Position numbers and translations under genes: made by a program
Notes under the pieces: generated by a model
Told to the model about the DNA's origin: nothing
Databases searched by the model: none
The model's input: the letters and a program-made list of their open reading frames with translations, nothing else
Shown here: piece after piece, positions 55,138 through 61,220 of the stretch
Numbering within the stretch: position 1 is the stretch's first letter
Layout of the letters: each line of letters begins with the position of its first letter
Virus record (IMG/VR): IMGVR_UViG_3300024306_000023
Span: 34,793-98,792 of that record
Reading direction: 5' to 3' (one strand)
DNA length: 64,000 nt
Source: a virus

Positions 55138-55210
55138 TGCTCGTCAGGGGAATCTAACCCCTCTTCGGCGCTTTATGAGAACGCTGCATTCGACAGATTG
55201 CTAGACGAGC
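55138..55210 (-). tRNA. tRNA-Met(CAT), atypical
   Basis: Acceptor GCTCGTC/GACGAGC pairs fully; anticodon stem GCGTT/AGCGC with loop CTCATAA (CAT); T stem AGGGG/CCCCT. The T loop is TTAGATT (C56 replaced by A) and the D loop ATCTGTCGAA lacks the usual GG. Discriminator A. The 5' ten bases overlap the end of the HNH gene. Confidence 0.72.
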
Positions 55211-55644
55211 GTTTGTAAAAATTGATTCCAAGAATTTCCATTATGGAGTTCTTGATGACAATTATGACATAAAAGATCACACTTGTCTATTTCTTCTTTT
55301 AGAGTTTCATACTTTGTATTTCCAAATCTTCTAGCATCAAGATTTAGTTCTTTTTGTGATGGATCTCTATGATGAAAGCACAGCATTGCTGGTCTGTTTT
55401 CACCACACTGTTGACATTTTCCACCTTTATTTTGAATTGCTTCCCATTTTCTTTCATAAGAAACTCTTTTTTGTCTTTCGTAAGTGTTTCTTTGTACTTG
55501 TTTAGGTTTATAGTTTGTGTCGTTTTTATAACGCCATCTTTGTCTACAAGCATTGCTACACCATTTTTTTAGTCGTCCTTTTGTGACTCTTTCATTTAAT
55601 ATATCACAACCACAATTATGACAGGTAGATATTAAAGTAAACAT
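55201..55644 (-). CDS. HNH endonuclease abutting tRNA-Met
   Basis: 147 residues. N-terminal zinc knuckle CHNCGCDILNERVTKGRLKKWCSNACRQRW. HNH core CQQCGENRPAMLCFHHRDPSQKE and CDLLCHNCHQELHN (His-His, Asn/His and Cys ligands). Typical free-standing homing nuclease. Its last codons and stop TAG (55201-55203) are provided by the acceptor stem and position 8-10 of tRNA-Met. Confidence 0.88.
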   Translation of the reverse strand: MFTLISTCHNCGCDILNERVTKGRLKKWCSNACRQRWRYKNDTNYKPKQVQRNTYERQKRVSYERKWEAIQNKGGKCQQCGENRPAMLCFHHRDPSQKELNLDARRFGNTKYETLKEEIDKCDLLCHNCHQELHNGNSWNQFLQTLV

Positions 55645-55690
55645 ATTGGTGTTATGAATATATACATAATTATTTATAAAAATTATGTAA

Positions 55691-57085: not shown

Positions 57086-57168
57086 CGGAAAGAACAGGAA
57101 TCGAACCTGCGAGGGCGTTAACCCCAGCCGCTTTCAAGGCGGTGTCCTCGACCAACCGGACTCTTTCC
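57086..57168 (-). tRNA. tRNA-Ser(TGA)
   Basis: 83 bases with the long variable arm of class II tRNAs. Acceptor GGAAAGA/TCTTTCC, anticodon loop TTGAAAG (TGA), T arm GCAGG/CCTGT around TTCGATT, discriminator G. Confidence 0.93.
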
Positions 57169-57445: not shown

Positions 57446-57880
57446 TCATTGTAAGTGAGACCTTAACATCCAAATAAACTTACCGTGAGACTCCATCAAA
57501 TCTTGAACTAGATTAGCAGTTGCATATTGCTTTTGTGCTTCGGATTCCTCTGAAATCTCTTGCATCATTTCACAAAACTTTTCATTATTTTCAAGAAGTT
57601 CTTGAAGCATTTCTCTTGCTCCAGATGAACTTGCTGCTTCTTTGATTTGAGTTACCTCAAGCATTCTCGAAAGAGAACTGAGAGGTTTTACATTCAAATA
57701 ACGCATATGTTCTGAGAGACGATCGATCTCTTCAAACATAGTCTCATACTGACCACCAAAAAGTTGATGGAGTTGAGTAAAGTCTTCACCTACAACATTC
57801 CAGTGAAATGCCCAAGTTTTATGGAATAAAACAAAAAGCGATGACTGTGCATCACTCAAGAGTTTATAAAGTTTTTCCAT
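57446..57880 (-). CDS. Dps/ferritin-like protein
   Basis: 144 residues. The Dps ferroxidase pattern: KTWAFHWNVVGEDFTQLHQLFGGQY (His motif) and EEIDRLSEHMRYL (Asp/Glu), four-helix bundle. Dps proteins oxidise iron with peroxide, store iron and protect DNA. With the peroxiredoxin it suggests the phage guards against oxidative stress. Late motif upstream at 57900-57907. Confidence 0.85.
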   Translation of the reverse strand: MEKLYKLLSDAQSSLFVLFHKTWAFHWNVVGEDFTQLHQLFGGQYETMFEEIDRLSEHMRYLNVKPLSSLSRMLEVTQIKEAASSSGAREMLQELLENNEKFCEMMQEISEESEAQKQYATANLVQDLMESHGKFIWMLRSHLQ

Positions 57881-57899
57881 TATACTCTTTTTTTATTTT

Positions 57900-57907
57900 T
57901 ATTTATC
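57900..57907 (-). promoter_or_regulatory. Late promoter motif GATAAATA before dps
   Basis: NATAAATA on the minus strand, 20 bases before the dps ATG and just after tRNA-Val. Confidence 0.55.
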
Positions 57908-57910
57908 AAG

Positions 57911-57983
57911 TGGGAGCAGAGGGATTCGAACCCCCGACATTCTGCGTGTAAAGCAGACGCTGCTACCGCTGAGCTATGCTCCC
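57911..57983 (-). tRNA. tRNA-Val(TAC)
   Basis: Acceptor GGGAGCA/TGCTCCC, D stem GCTC/TAGC-type, anticodon loop TTTACAC (TAC), T arm GGGGG/CCCTC around TTCGAAT, discriminator A. Its first 21 bases also encode the end of the HNH protein. Confidence 0.93.
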
Positions 57984-58394
57984 GTATTTAGGATGCCCAC
58001 CGTTTTTATATCTTCCACCTCTACTCTTATTTGGAGGTTGAGTTTTAAGAGAGTGGCAATTTGGACAGAGAACCTGCAAATTGCTTGGCGAATGATTAAA
58101 TGGGTCATCGTCAATATGGTCGATTTCTAATGGAACTTTACCAGTATGGATATTAGTTCCAGACCAACCACATTTAGAGCACTTGTGTAGTGCTTCCTCC
58201 AAAAGATAGTTTCTTACATATTGCGATAAATTGTAAGAAGAACCACCTGAAACTAAACCTTGTTTCCATTCAGTAATATACTGATTTCTTGTGTGTTCTT
58301 GTTGACATTTGTTGTTACAATACTTACCTCTTTTATGATAAGGATTGTAAGTAAATATCGTAGAACAATTTAAACAAGTAGCGGTTTGTTTCAT
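57963..58394 (-). CDS. HNH endonuclease running into tRNA-Val
   Basis: 143 residues. N-terminal zinc motif CLNCSTIFTYNPYHKRGKYCNNKC, then HNH core CSKCGWSGTNIHTGKVPLEIDHIDDD ... PSNLQVLCPNCHSLKTQ (described as residues ~72-117; catalytic His-Asp-His and Cys pairs). The final residues GSIAQR and the stop TAG are encoded by the first 21 bases of tRNA-Val. Free-standing homing nuclease adjacent to its probable target. Confidence 0.9.
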   Translation of the reverse strand: MKQTATCLNCSTIFTYNPYHKRGKYCNNKCQQEHTRNQYITEWKQGLVSGGSSYNLSQYVRNYLLEEALHKCSKCGWSGTNIHTGKVPLEIDHIDDDPFNHSPSNLQVLCPNCHSLKTQPPNKSRGGRYKNGGHPKYGSIAQR

Positions 58395-58437
58395 CAGTTT
58401 AGTAGAACACTTTATTATTTATAAGGTATTCTACTAA

Positions 58438-58509
58438 CTCCCCCGACAAGATTCGAACTTGTGACCTGGAAATTAACAGTTTCTCGCGCTACCGCTGCGC
58501 CACAGGGGA
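58438..58509 (-). tRNA. tRNA-Asn(GTT)
   Basis: Acceptor TCCCCTG/CGGGGGA with one G-T pair, anticodon loop CTGTTAA (GTT), T arm ACAAG/CTTGT around TTCGAAT, discriminator G. Confidence 0.9.
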
Positions 58510-58514
58510 ATAAG

Positions 58515-58563: not shown

Positions 58564-58637
58564 GTGCCTCTGGCTGGGAATCGAACCCAGTATCCAACTC
58601 CTTTGTCAGGGTGTCCTTACCAATAGACTACGCAGAG
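58564..58637 (-). tRNA. Degenerate tRNA-like element, anticodon arm unclear
   Basis: T arm CTGGG/CCCAG around TTCGATT and acceptor CCTCTG/CAGAGG are good; D stem GTC/GAC. The anticodon region (CACCCTGACAAAGGAGTTGG) does not fold into a 5-bp stem with a 7-base loop, and the acceptor has an extra G. A Val(GAC) reading is possible. Either a decayed tRNA or one needing a non-standard fold. Confidence 0.45.
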
Positions 58638-58642
58638 GAAAT

Positions 58643-60426: not shown

Positions 60427-60648
60427 TTACCGAACATCAACTTCTTGCTCATCTGTCCAATCATCATCCTCCAAACAAAGATAATTCAGTTCTTGCATTC
60501 CTTCTGGGATATTAATCCACTCATCAAATTCGGAAGCAATTGCAAGAGCATTAAGTTGATCCTCCATTCCACCATGATCTGCAAGGTGACGAATCCGATC
60601 AATAGACCAATTCCTCACATAAGGAACTGGTTCAATCTGAGTTTCCAT
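60427..60648 (-). CDS. Small acidic protein
   Basis: 73 residues from ATG 60648 (METQIEPVPYVRNWSIDRIR). Longer in-frame extension overlaps the GIY-YIG gene and is rejected. Helical with acidic end (LEDDDWTDEQEVD). Function unknown. Confidence 0.62.
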   Translation of the reverse strand: METQIEPVPYVRNWSIDRIRHLADHGGMEDQLNALAIASEFDEWINIPEGMQELNYLCLEDDDWTDEQEVDVR

Positions 60649-61075
60649 AATAATCTTTTCGGAAGTACCTGTTGAGGATGTTGCTATTGTAGTAGGCGGG
60701 TGTTCCGTTGTCAAGTGATTCTGTGAGAACTCCGTTGACGAATAACTGTCTCGTTTCTTCGAAGTTTGTTTTGCCCTTTGTTTTATGTAATGATAAGATA
60801 GTTCGACTAAAATTTTCTCTGCCCAATTTGTCAATGTCTTCTTTAAGTTCCGGACAAGACCCATAGTATTCTTTCCAATTAGATTCTGATTTTACTTTTC
60901 GTTTTTTACCTTTTGGTGTTCTAAATTGCCAAAGGTATTTTCTACCAATATATCTCTTACCGTTTAGTTTATTTTCAATCAAATAAACAAATCCATAATG
61001 GTCTCCGATATCTTCACTTGTGAAAGGATTCCCATTATAGATCCAAGGATTATCATAGTCAATATCTATACTCAT
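60632..61075 (-). CDS. GIY-YIG domain endonuclease
   Basis: 147 residues from ATG 61075. YGFVYLIENKLNGKRYIGRKYLWQ is the GIY-YIG core (~27-50), then SESNWKEYYGSC and KGKTNFEETRQLFV with the catalytic Glu. T4-like phages carry several such nucleases; this type has no separate DNA-binding domain. May act as a homing or DNA repair nuclease. Confidence 0.8.
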   Translation of the reverse strand: MSIDIDYDNPWIYNGNPFTSEDIGDHYGFVYLIENKLNGKRYIGRKYLWQFRTPKGKKRKVKSESNWKEYYGSCPELKEDIDKLGRENFSRTILSLHKTKGKTNFEETRQLFVNGVLTESLDNGTPAYYNSNILNRYFRKDYYGNSD

Positions 61076-61220
61076 CAATAATATCTAAAACCTCATTCAG
61101 ATATTTATGAGCAAGTCCTTTCATATCCATTTCTGGTCGAATATGATCTTTGTGTAATTTATCTTTTAATTTTAAAACACGAACTTTAAGTTCGTCTTTG
61201 TTTATTTGATTTTTTGGCAT
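61059..61220 (-). CDS. 53-residue conserved peptide
   Basis: MPKNQINKDELKVRVLKLKD opening, then MKGLAHKYLNEVLDIIDEYRY. A helical peptide of a kind I recall in cyanomyoviruses. Preceded by the terminator T-run; overlaps the GIY-YIG start. Function unknown. Confidence 0.58.
   Translation of the reverse strand: MPKNQINKDELKVRVLKLKDKLHKDHIRPEMDMKGLAHKYLNEVLDIIDEYRY

Follow-up and report, generated by a model that had tools for sequence, protein, structure and literature searches.

Integrase-borne elements use a tRNA gene as their target and restore its function with element-borne sequence, and group I introns of bacterial tRNAs insert in the anticodon loop and are often associated with an endonuclease. 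Group I introns of this kind in bacterial tRNAs are documented (PMC3984707), as are HNH genes within mycobacterial and phage tRNA clusters (PMC6582537). SegB of phages T4 and T6 is a GIY-YIG endonuclease inserted between tRNA genes (PMC13096335), and mobile ORFs in the mitochondria of Allomyces and Glomus bring a foreign gene end to atp6, atp9, cox2, and nad3 (PMC3630166). HNH elements that split a tRNA gene and carry a spare copy were not described in the open-access papers that we searched, and they may be described elsewhere.

We analyzed a 64,000-nt stretch (hereafter, the window) of a 98.8 kb freshwater viral record that reads as a T4-like cyanophage, judging by its tRNA array, TATAAATA late promoters, and ribonucleotide reductase. 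On its minus strand, the window carries an HNH homing-endonuclease-like ORF of 143 aa (57963..58394, ATG to TAG) that matches Pfam PF01844 (E = 5e-6) and PHROG 1271, ‘HNH endonuclease’ (E = 7e-17). The protein had no GIY-YIG domain match in Pfam or PHROG, and a PDB search returned distant McrA-like HNH matches only. A complete tRNA-Val(UAC) (57910..57983, minus strand) lies directly 3′ of the HNH gene, and the ORF ends inside it. Specifically, the C-terminus reads ...HPKY-GSIAQR-TAG, where the last seven codons (57983-57963), GSIAQR plus the stop, are nt 1-21 of tRNA-Val and the TAG sits in the D-loop (GCGGTAG). This overlap (57963..57983, minus strand) was the starting point of a preliminary description of the locus, and the tRNA on which it depends is supported by both ARAGORN and Rfam (RF00005, 66 bits).

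Upstream of the HNH start is a hairpin (58397..58438, minus strand; -15.9 kcal/mol, z -4.1) with a T4-type late promoter motif, TATAAATA (58416..58423, minus strand), in its loop. By sequence this is the late-promoter/hairpin control that is typical, if not universal, of such genes, and relatives of the window HNH have a comparable architecture of hairpin and TATAAATA. Further upstream is tRNA-Asn(GUU) (58437..58510, minus strand). The window protein has further features of free-standing phage HNH endonucleases, namely the HNH/zinc motif and relatives that lack the gene at the same site. Across the family alignment, DH..N..CPNCH and the zinc cysteines are conserved; in the clade of the window, pairwise dN/dS is 0.03-0.15 where computable, and the HNH bodies are under purifying selection. 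Considering the relatives described below, we regard it as likely that the window HNH gene and tRNA-Val together form one homing cassette of an HNH family that inserts into tRNA genes.

Several other features of this region were observed on the minus strand. A Ferritin-like/Dps gene (57446-57909) is located downstream of tRNA-Val, and in relatives a TATAAATA-like motif between the two represents a possible separate late promoter. A Ser-like tRNA (57086-57168) was missed by ARAGORN and scored 30.4 bits in Rfam, barely above the cut-off, and an Asp-like sequence with an odd anticodon loop (58566-58638) was called tRNA-??? by ARAGORN and fell under the Rfam cut-off; each of the two may represent a tRNA that is degenerate or otherwise unusual. 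A SegE-like GIY-YIG endonuclease ORF is present at 60632-61078 (Pfam SegE_GIY-YIG, E = 2.7e-54), and the label ‘NAD synthetase’ that PHROG 447 attaches to the same SegE family looks like a misannotation.

The preliminary description had also reported another HNH gene in the array that ends in a tRNA, and this case holds as well. The ORF (55201..55644, minus strand; 147 aa) belongs to another HNH family (phrog_2255) and enters tRNA-Met(CAU) (55138..55210, minus strand) over positions 55201-55210. Its TAG is nt 8-10 (U8-A9-G10) of tRNA-Met and not the D-loop TAG, and all 13 of its relatives (13/13) have TAG at the same nucleotides of tRNA-Met. TATAAATA is found upstream of this ORF also (55671..55678, minus strand), in a hairpin with a weak fold (z -1.2).

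Scanning IMG/VR with the window HNH protein yielded 75 loci. All 21 loci with at least 81% identity to the window protein stop inside tRNA-Val; their tRNA sequences differ strongly, and the HNH tail follows the tRNA. The tRNA-coded tails comprise GSIAQR, GRLAQR, GRIAQR, ACLVQR, TGD, and a bare G. Two extra bases before the tRNA shift the frame so that the stop becomes U8A9G10 (TGD*), and in one relative (L016) the stop is a TGA within the tRNA acceptor stem. Since tail and frame vary with the tRNA, the tail is not conserved protein; rather, the tRNA merely supplies a stop. The earlier suggestion that tRNA conservation would protect the end of the nuclease is therefore not supported, as the tail differs between relatives and a 2-nt shift is enough to select another stop. 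Among loci of the Val clade, HNH identity does not follow tRNA identity (88/71 against 72/94), so the two have not always been inherited together.

An alignment of 25 diverse HNH members led to further loci from bacterial genomes and viral contigs, the metagenomic contigs among them being fragments. After dereplication, 107 HNH-family genes preceding a tRNA were compared with 279 other ORFs from the same loci, a control set that includes some spurious ORFs. The ORF ended 4-40 nt inside the tRNA in 43 of the 107 HNH genes (40%) versus 36 of the 279 other ORFs (13%; Fisher p = 1.5e-8), and the enrichment was evident among viral (p = 3e-4) and bacterial (p = 1e-5) loci alone. The overlap of the HNH end with tRNA thus exceeds chance, and the survey that the preliminary description had called for finds the pattern beyond the genome of the window. 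The D-loop TAG, in contrast, does not stand as the general stop that had been envisaged: it terminates only five of the 43 overlapping HNH genes, whereas U8-A9-G10 is the commonest stop (20/43), and other ORFs that enter tRNAs use the same stops. At least 13 of the 36 overlapping other ORFs resemble, by sequence, endonucleases from other families (HNH, VSR-like, or GIY-YIG), and a profile test on ten such ORFs matched nine to endonuclease families.

The family has a preferred neighbor. tRNA-Thr adjoins 54 of 96 HNH genes versus 22 of 161 control ORFs (p = 8e-13), and in bacterial genomes it lies beside the HNH gene in 37 of 39 cases. The arrangement of HNH gene and tRNA was also identified in named isolates, including Synechococcus phages RN05-S and DSL-LC03, Escherichia phage HdH2, Cronobacter phage LPCS28, and Streptomyces phage PumpkinSpice. 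The bacterial relatives (L235-L314) are mostly from Patescibacteria, with some from Mycobacterium and cyanobacteria; nearly all adjoin tRNA-Thr, some lying 30-70 nt behind tRNA-Thr(UGU) and others entering tRNA-Thr(CGU). At four loci (L147:2201-2972, L171, L176, and L179) the HNH 3′ end meets the 3′ end of a tRNA-Thr(UGU) on the opposite strand to within ~7 nt. Many other family members (e.g., L041:3389, L068:3399, and L065:3400) stop 0-13 nt before the tRNA and form a continuum with the overlapping cases.

These distributions bear on two alternative explanations of the overlap. The window gene could be a plain free-standing homing endonuclease in the spacer just 5′ of tRNA-Val that brings no replacement tRNA, with the overlap arising merely from the compactness of phage tRNA arrays, given that RNase P needs no spacer. 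Non-HNH ORFs do end within -40..15 nt of tRNAs in 123 of 279 cases and use the same U8A9G10 stop, which fits such a scenario; however, overlap is 3-fold enriched in the HNH family over these other ORFs, which themselves include other endonucleases. Alternatively, the overlap could be an expression switch kept by selection, in which the RNase P cut at the tRNA 5′ end strips the stop from the HNH mRNA such that tRNA maturation ends nuclease synthesis. The stop is 3′ of the tRNA 5′ end in every overlapping case, and late promoters and hairpins keep the homing endonuclease genes of T4 under tight control (PMC2988022); the same elements are found here. Yet the many family members that stop short of the tRNA would escape a switch of this kind, and as the explanation for the overlap we consider it quite improbable.

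The cassette interpretation draws on relatives in which the HNH element interrupts a tRNA gene. One HNH element was identified at three places (L160/L355/L356, L357, and L358) with unrelated flanks: the element is 90.7-93.1% and its carried tRNA-Ala 96-99% identical to that of L160, while the 300-nt flanks are 44-50% identical, which is the chance level. At each place the resident tRNA-Ala is split exactly at 34|35 of the anticodon, with the 5′ half ending in T34 and the 3′ half starting with G35. The inserts (532-539 nt) comprise, in order, a TAGAGTTAGTCC..TATAAATA..GGTCTAAC hairpin, the HNH gene, a complete tRNA-Ala(UGC), and a tail of 6-8 nt with A as its last base. The HNH ORF terminates at U8-A9-G10 of the carried tRNA, the same overlap as in the window. 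When the old halves were rejoined by script they gave a perfect tRNA-Ala(tgc) in L160, L357, and L358, and they were called tRNA-Thr(ggt) in L198, a locus where tRNA-Thr(GGT) is split and the carried tRNA is tRNA-Thr(UGU). Empty alleles with an intact tRNA-Ala were found for both the downstream (L349) and the upstream (L351) flank of L160. The complete replacement tRNA in these relatives is absent from the reading offered in the preliminary description.

The carried tRNA-Ala differs from the target in its anticodon stem. The old tRNA-Ala targets share CCTGCTTT^GCAAGCAGG and the carried tRNA-Ala has GATGCTTTGCAAGCATC or GGTGCTTTGCAAGCATC; likewise, the intact target tRNA-Ala reads GCGCCTGCTTT^GCAAGCAGG versus GGATGCTTTGCAAGCATC in the carried tRNA-Ala. 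A second exact TGCTTTGCAAGCA was not found in the five records searched, the longest being 43.7 kb, and hence no intact target was found in them.

Two other kinds of insert were considered for the split genes and rejected. The insertion point at nt 34|35 falls in the anticodon loop, where bacterial tRNAs can also harbor group I introns, a point in favor of an intron that encodes an HNH endonuclease. However, splicing would be superfluous given the complete tRNA within the insert, and Rfam gives only tRNA matches in L160, L357, L358, L198, and the region of the window; we regard an intron as scarcely tenable. An integrase-borne tRNA island was rejected because neither a tyrosine nor a serine recombinase gene is present in the 532-539-nt inserts, the contents of which are one HNH ORF and a tRNA.

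Similar arrangements were detected in bacteria. One bacterial locus (L253) has a decayed version of the split-tRNA pattern. In a member of the Patescibacteria (L261:3606-4110), a GIY-YIG-like ORF is positioned between near-exact copies of the 5′ half of tRNA-Thr(GGU); its ATG lies within the anticodon loop of the remnant and the 3′ 21 nt of the tRNA are repeated behind it. This ORF, which is GIY-YIG-like by sequence and has no PHROG match, appears to extend the architecture to a second nuclease family.

Remnants of older tRNAs were sought upstream of the HNH genes. An ungapped scan against the adjacent tRNA alone placed 10 of 101 genes above shuffles, whereas the more sensitive search with a tRNA library (score ≥16) found 5′ remnants upstream of 20 of 100 HNH genes. 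Controls gave 2 (shuffled) and 4 (reverse-complement), and other ORFs had such remnants in 2 of 171 cases. In the ten cases listed (L160, L161, L357, L358, L198, L143, L250, L253, L281, and L283), the last nucleotide of the 5′ remnant is one of nt 33-36 and thus lies within the anticodon loop. The bacterial elements have a common left end, similar to AATCTNCARCCACT, directly behind the 5′ remnant. No comparable excess was observed on the other side: among elements located 3′ of a complete tRNA, 3′ remnants followed 6 of 47 versus 13 of 136 controls at score 16, which is not significant, with L223, L243, and L027 as clear single cases.

Within the Val clade, 5′ remnants of an old tRNA-Val of 28 (L012), 23 (L009), and 9 (L014) nt were identified upstream of the HNH gene, and the position of the remnant in L009 is that of the intact tRNA-Val in HNH-less L104 and L129. 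In L027, the HNH of which is 54% identical, an 18-nt 3′ remnant of tRNA-Val lies right behind the HNH stop. Four HNH-less relatives (L097, L120, L127, and L132) have the exact tRNA-Val core of the window, and in them tRNA-Asn directly abuts tRNA-Val; the window has a 453-nt insert between the two. Such empty Asn-Val sites fit insertion in a spacer, as does the window itself, where no recognizable half of an older tRNA-Val is left and no split-tRNA remnant was found. The 5′ remnants upstream of HNH genes in the family and in the clade of the window, together with the complete tRNA carried within split tRNA-Ala genes, argue against a plain spacer endonuclease, which we consider unlikely overall. 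Because the window lacks old tRNA halves, the history of its cassette is inferred from relatives.

Collectively, the sequences of the relatives document a precise and repeated insertion point, movement of the element among tRNA genes, a carried tRNA that matches the isotype of the split gene, and empty alleles. On the same kind of evidence (split tRNAs, empty alleles, and upstream 5′ remnants), the earlier proposal of tRNA genes as homing sites is supported for this family as far as the place of insertion is concerned. We infer that the HNH-tRNA-Val pair of the window belongs to the class of split-tRNA cassettes, and tRNA-Val(UAC) is taken as the cassette’s own tRNA. Under the cassette model, the HNH protein would cut the anticodon arm near 34|35, and repair of the break from a donor would copy the cassette into the cut tRNA gene, with the clearest cases placing it between anticodon nt 34 and 35. 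Along with the HNH gene and its late-promoter hairpin, the recipient would gain a complete tRNA of matching isotype, and the function lost when the resident gene is split would be restored at once. An HNH ORF without room for its own stop would end at the first stop that the carried tRNA presents in its frame, and the altered anticodon stem of that tRNA would block self-cutting. The cassette of the window would have arisen by the same route and later lost the old tRNA halves. Several observations speak against the cassette model, among them the missing tRNA halves in the window, the uncoupled HNH and tRNA identities of the Val clade, and the lack of a significant excess of 3′ remnants. Some non-endonuclease ORFs also stop inside tRNAs. 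Moreover, several HNH-less phages have exactly the tRNA-Val of the window, so self-resistance there would require more than a protective tRNA sequence, unless their alleles resist cutting as well.

Because the anticodon stem of the carried tRNA is altered, these elements can be read as a natural form of insert-and-rescue, in which an endonuclease (HNH or, in one bacterial case, GIY-YIG-like) cuts the anticodon arm of the resident tRNA, homes in, and delivers a tRNA of the same isotype with a stem too divergent to be cut again; we give this broader reading an even chance. The RNase P switch and the cassette explanation could coexist, and the overlap of ORF and tRNA may add a self-limiting step in which tRNA maturation removes the stop codon of the nuclease. 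If correct, insert-and-rescue elements would be spreading through phage and bacterial tRNA genes and swapping tRNA alleles, which would provide a mechanism for tRNA gene acquisition and replacement in phages and small bacteria and would explain a recurrent, mostly unannotated gene overlap. A homing endonuclease could then reside in a structural RNA gene with no need of an intron, and the elements would be a naturally evolved counterpart of engineered gene-cutting in which a cut-resistant copy is supplied.

Compared with known systems, the elements described here differ from integrase-borne elements in that the insert has no recombinase and carries a whole tRNA rather than its 3′ part, and from group I introns in that no intron RNA is involved and the repair would occur at the DNA level by a second tRNA. 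As in the fungal mobile ORFs (PMC3630166), an endonuclease ORF invades a gene together with a substitute for what it displaces, and the displaced native sequence persists as a remnant; however, the fungal cases concern organelle protein genes and the C-terminal part only, whereas here a complete tRNA gene is carried, in phages and bacteria. SegB is likewise a homing endonuclease tied to phage tRNA genes, but it belongs to a different nuclease family and has tRNAs of many different isotypes less than 1 kb away, while members of the HNH family abut or overlap a single tRNA, with a preference for tRNA-Thr, and in the clearest cases split tRNAs at nt 34|35. In organization, the elements also resemble the T4-like free-standing homing endonucleases (mob/seg; PMC2988022), which likewise comprise a small intergenic nuclease gene, of HNH type, with a late-promoter hairpin upstream and HNH-less alleles in relatives; the hairpin and late-promoter motif upstream of the window gene match the control known for T4 segB and mobE (PMC2988022). 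Unlike mob/seg, the Ala and Thr elements interrupt a structural RNA gene at one defined base and bring a full replacement copy, and their ORF ends inside that copy.
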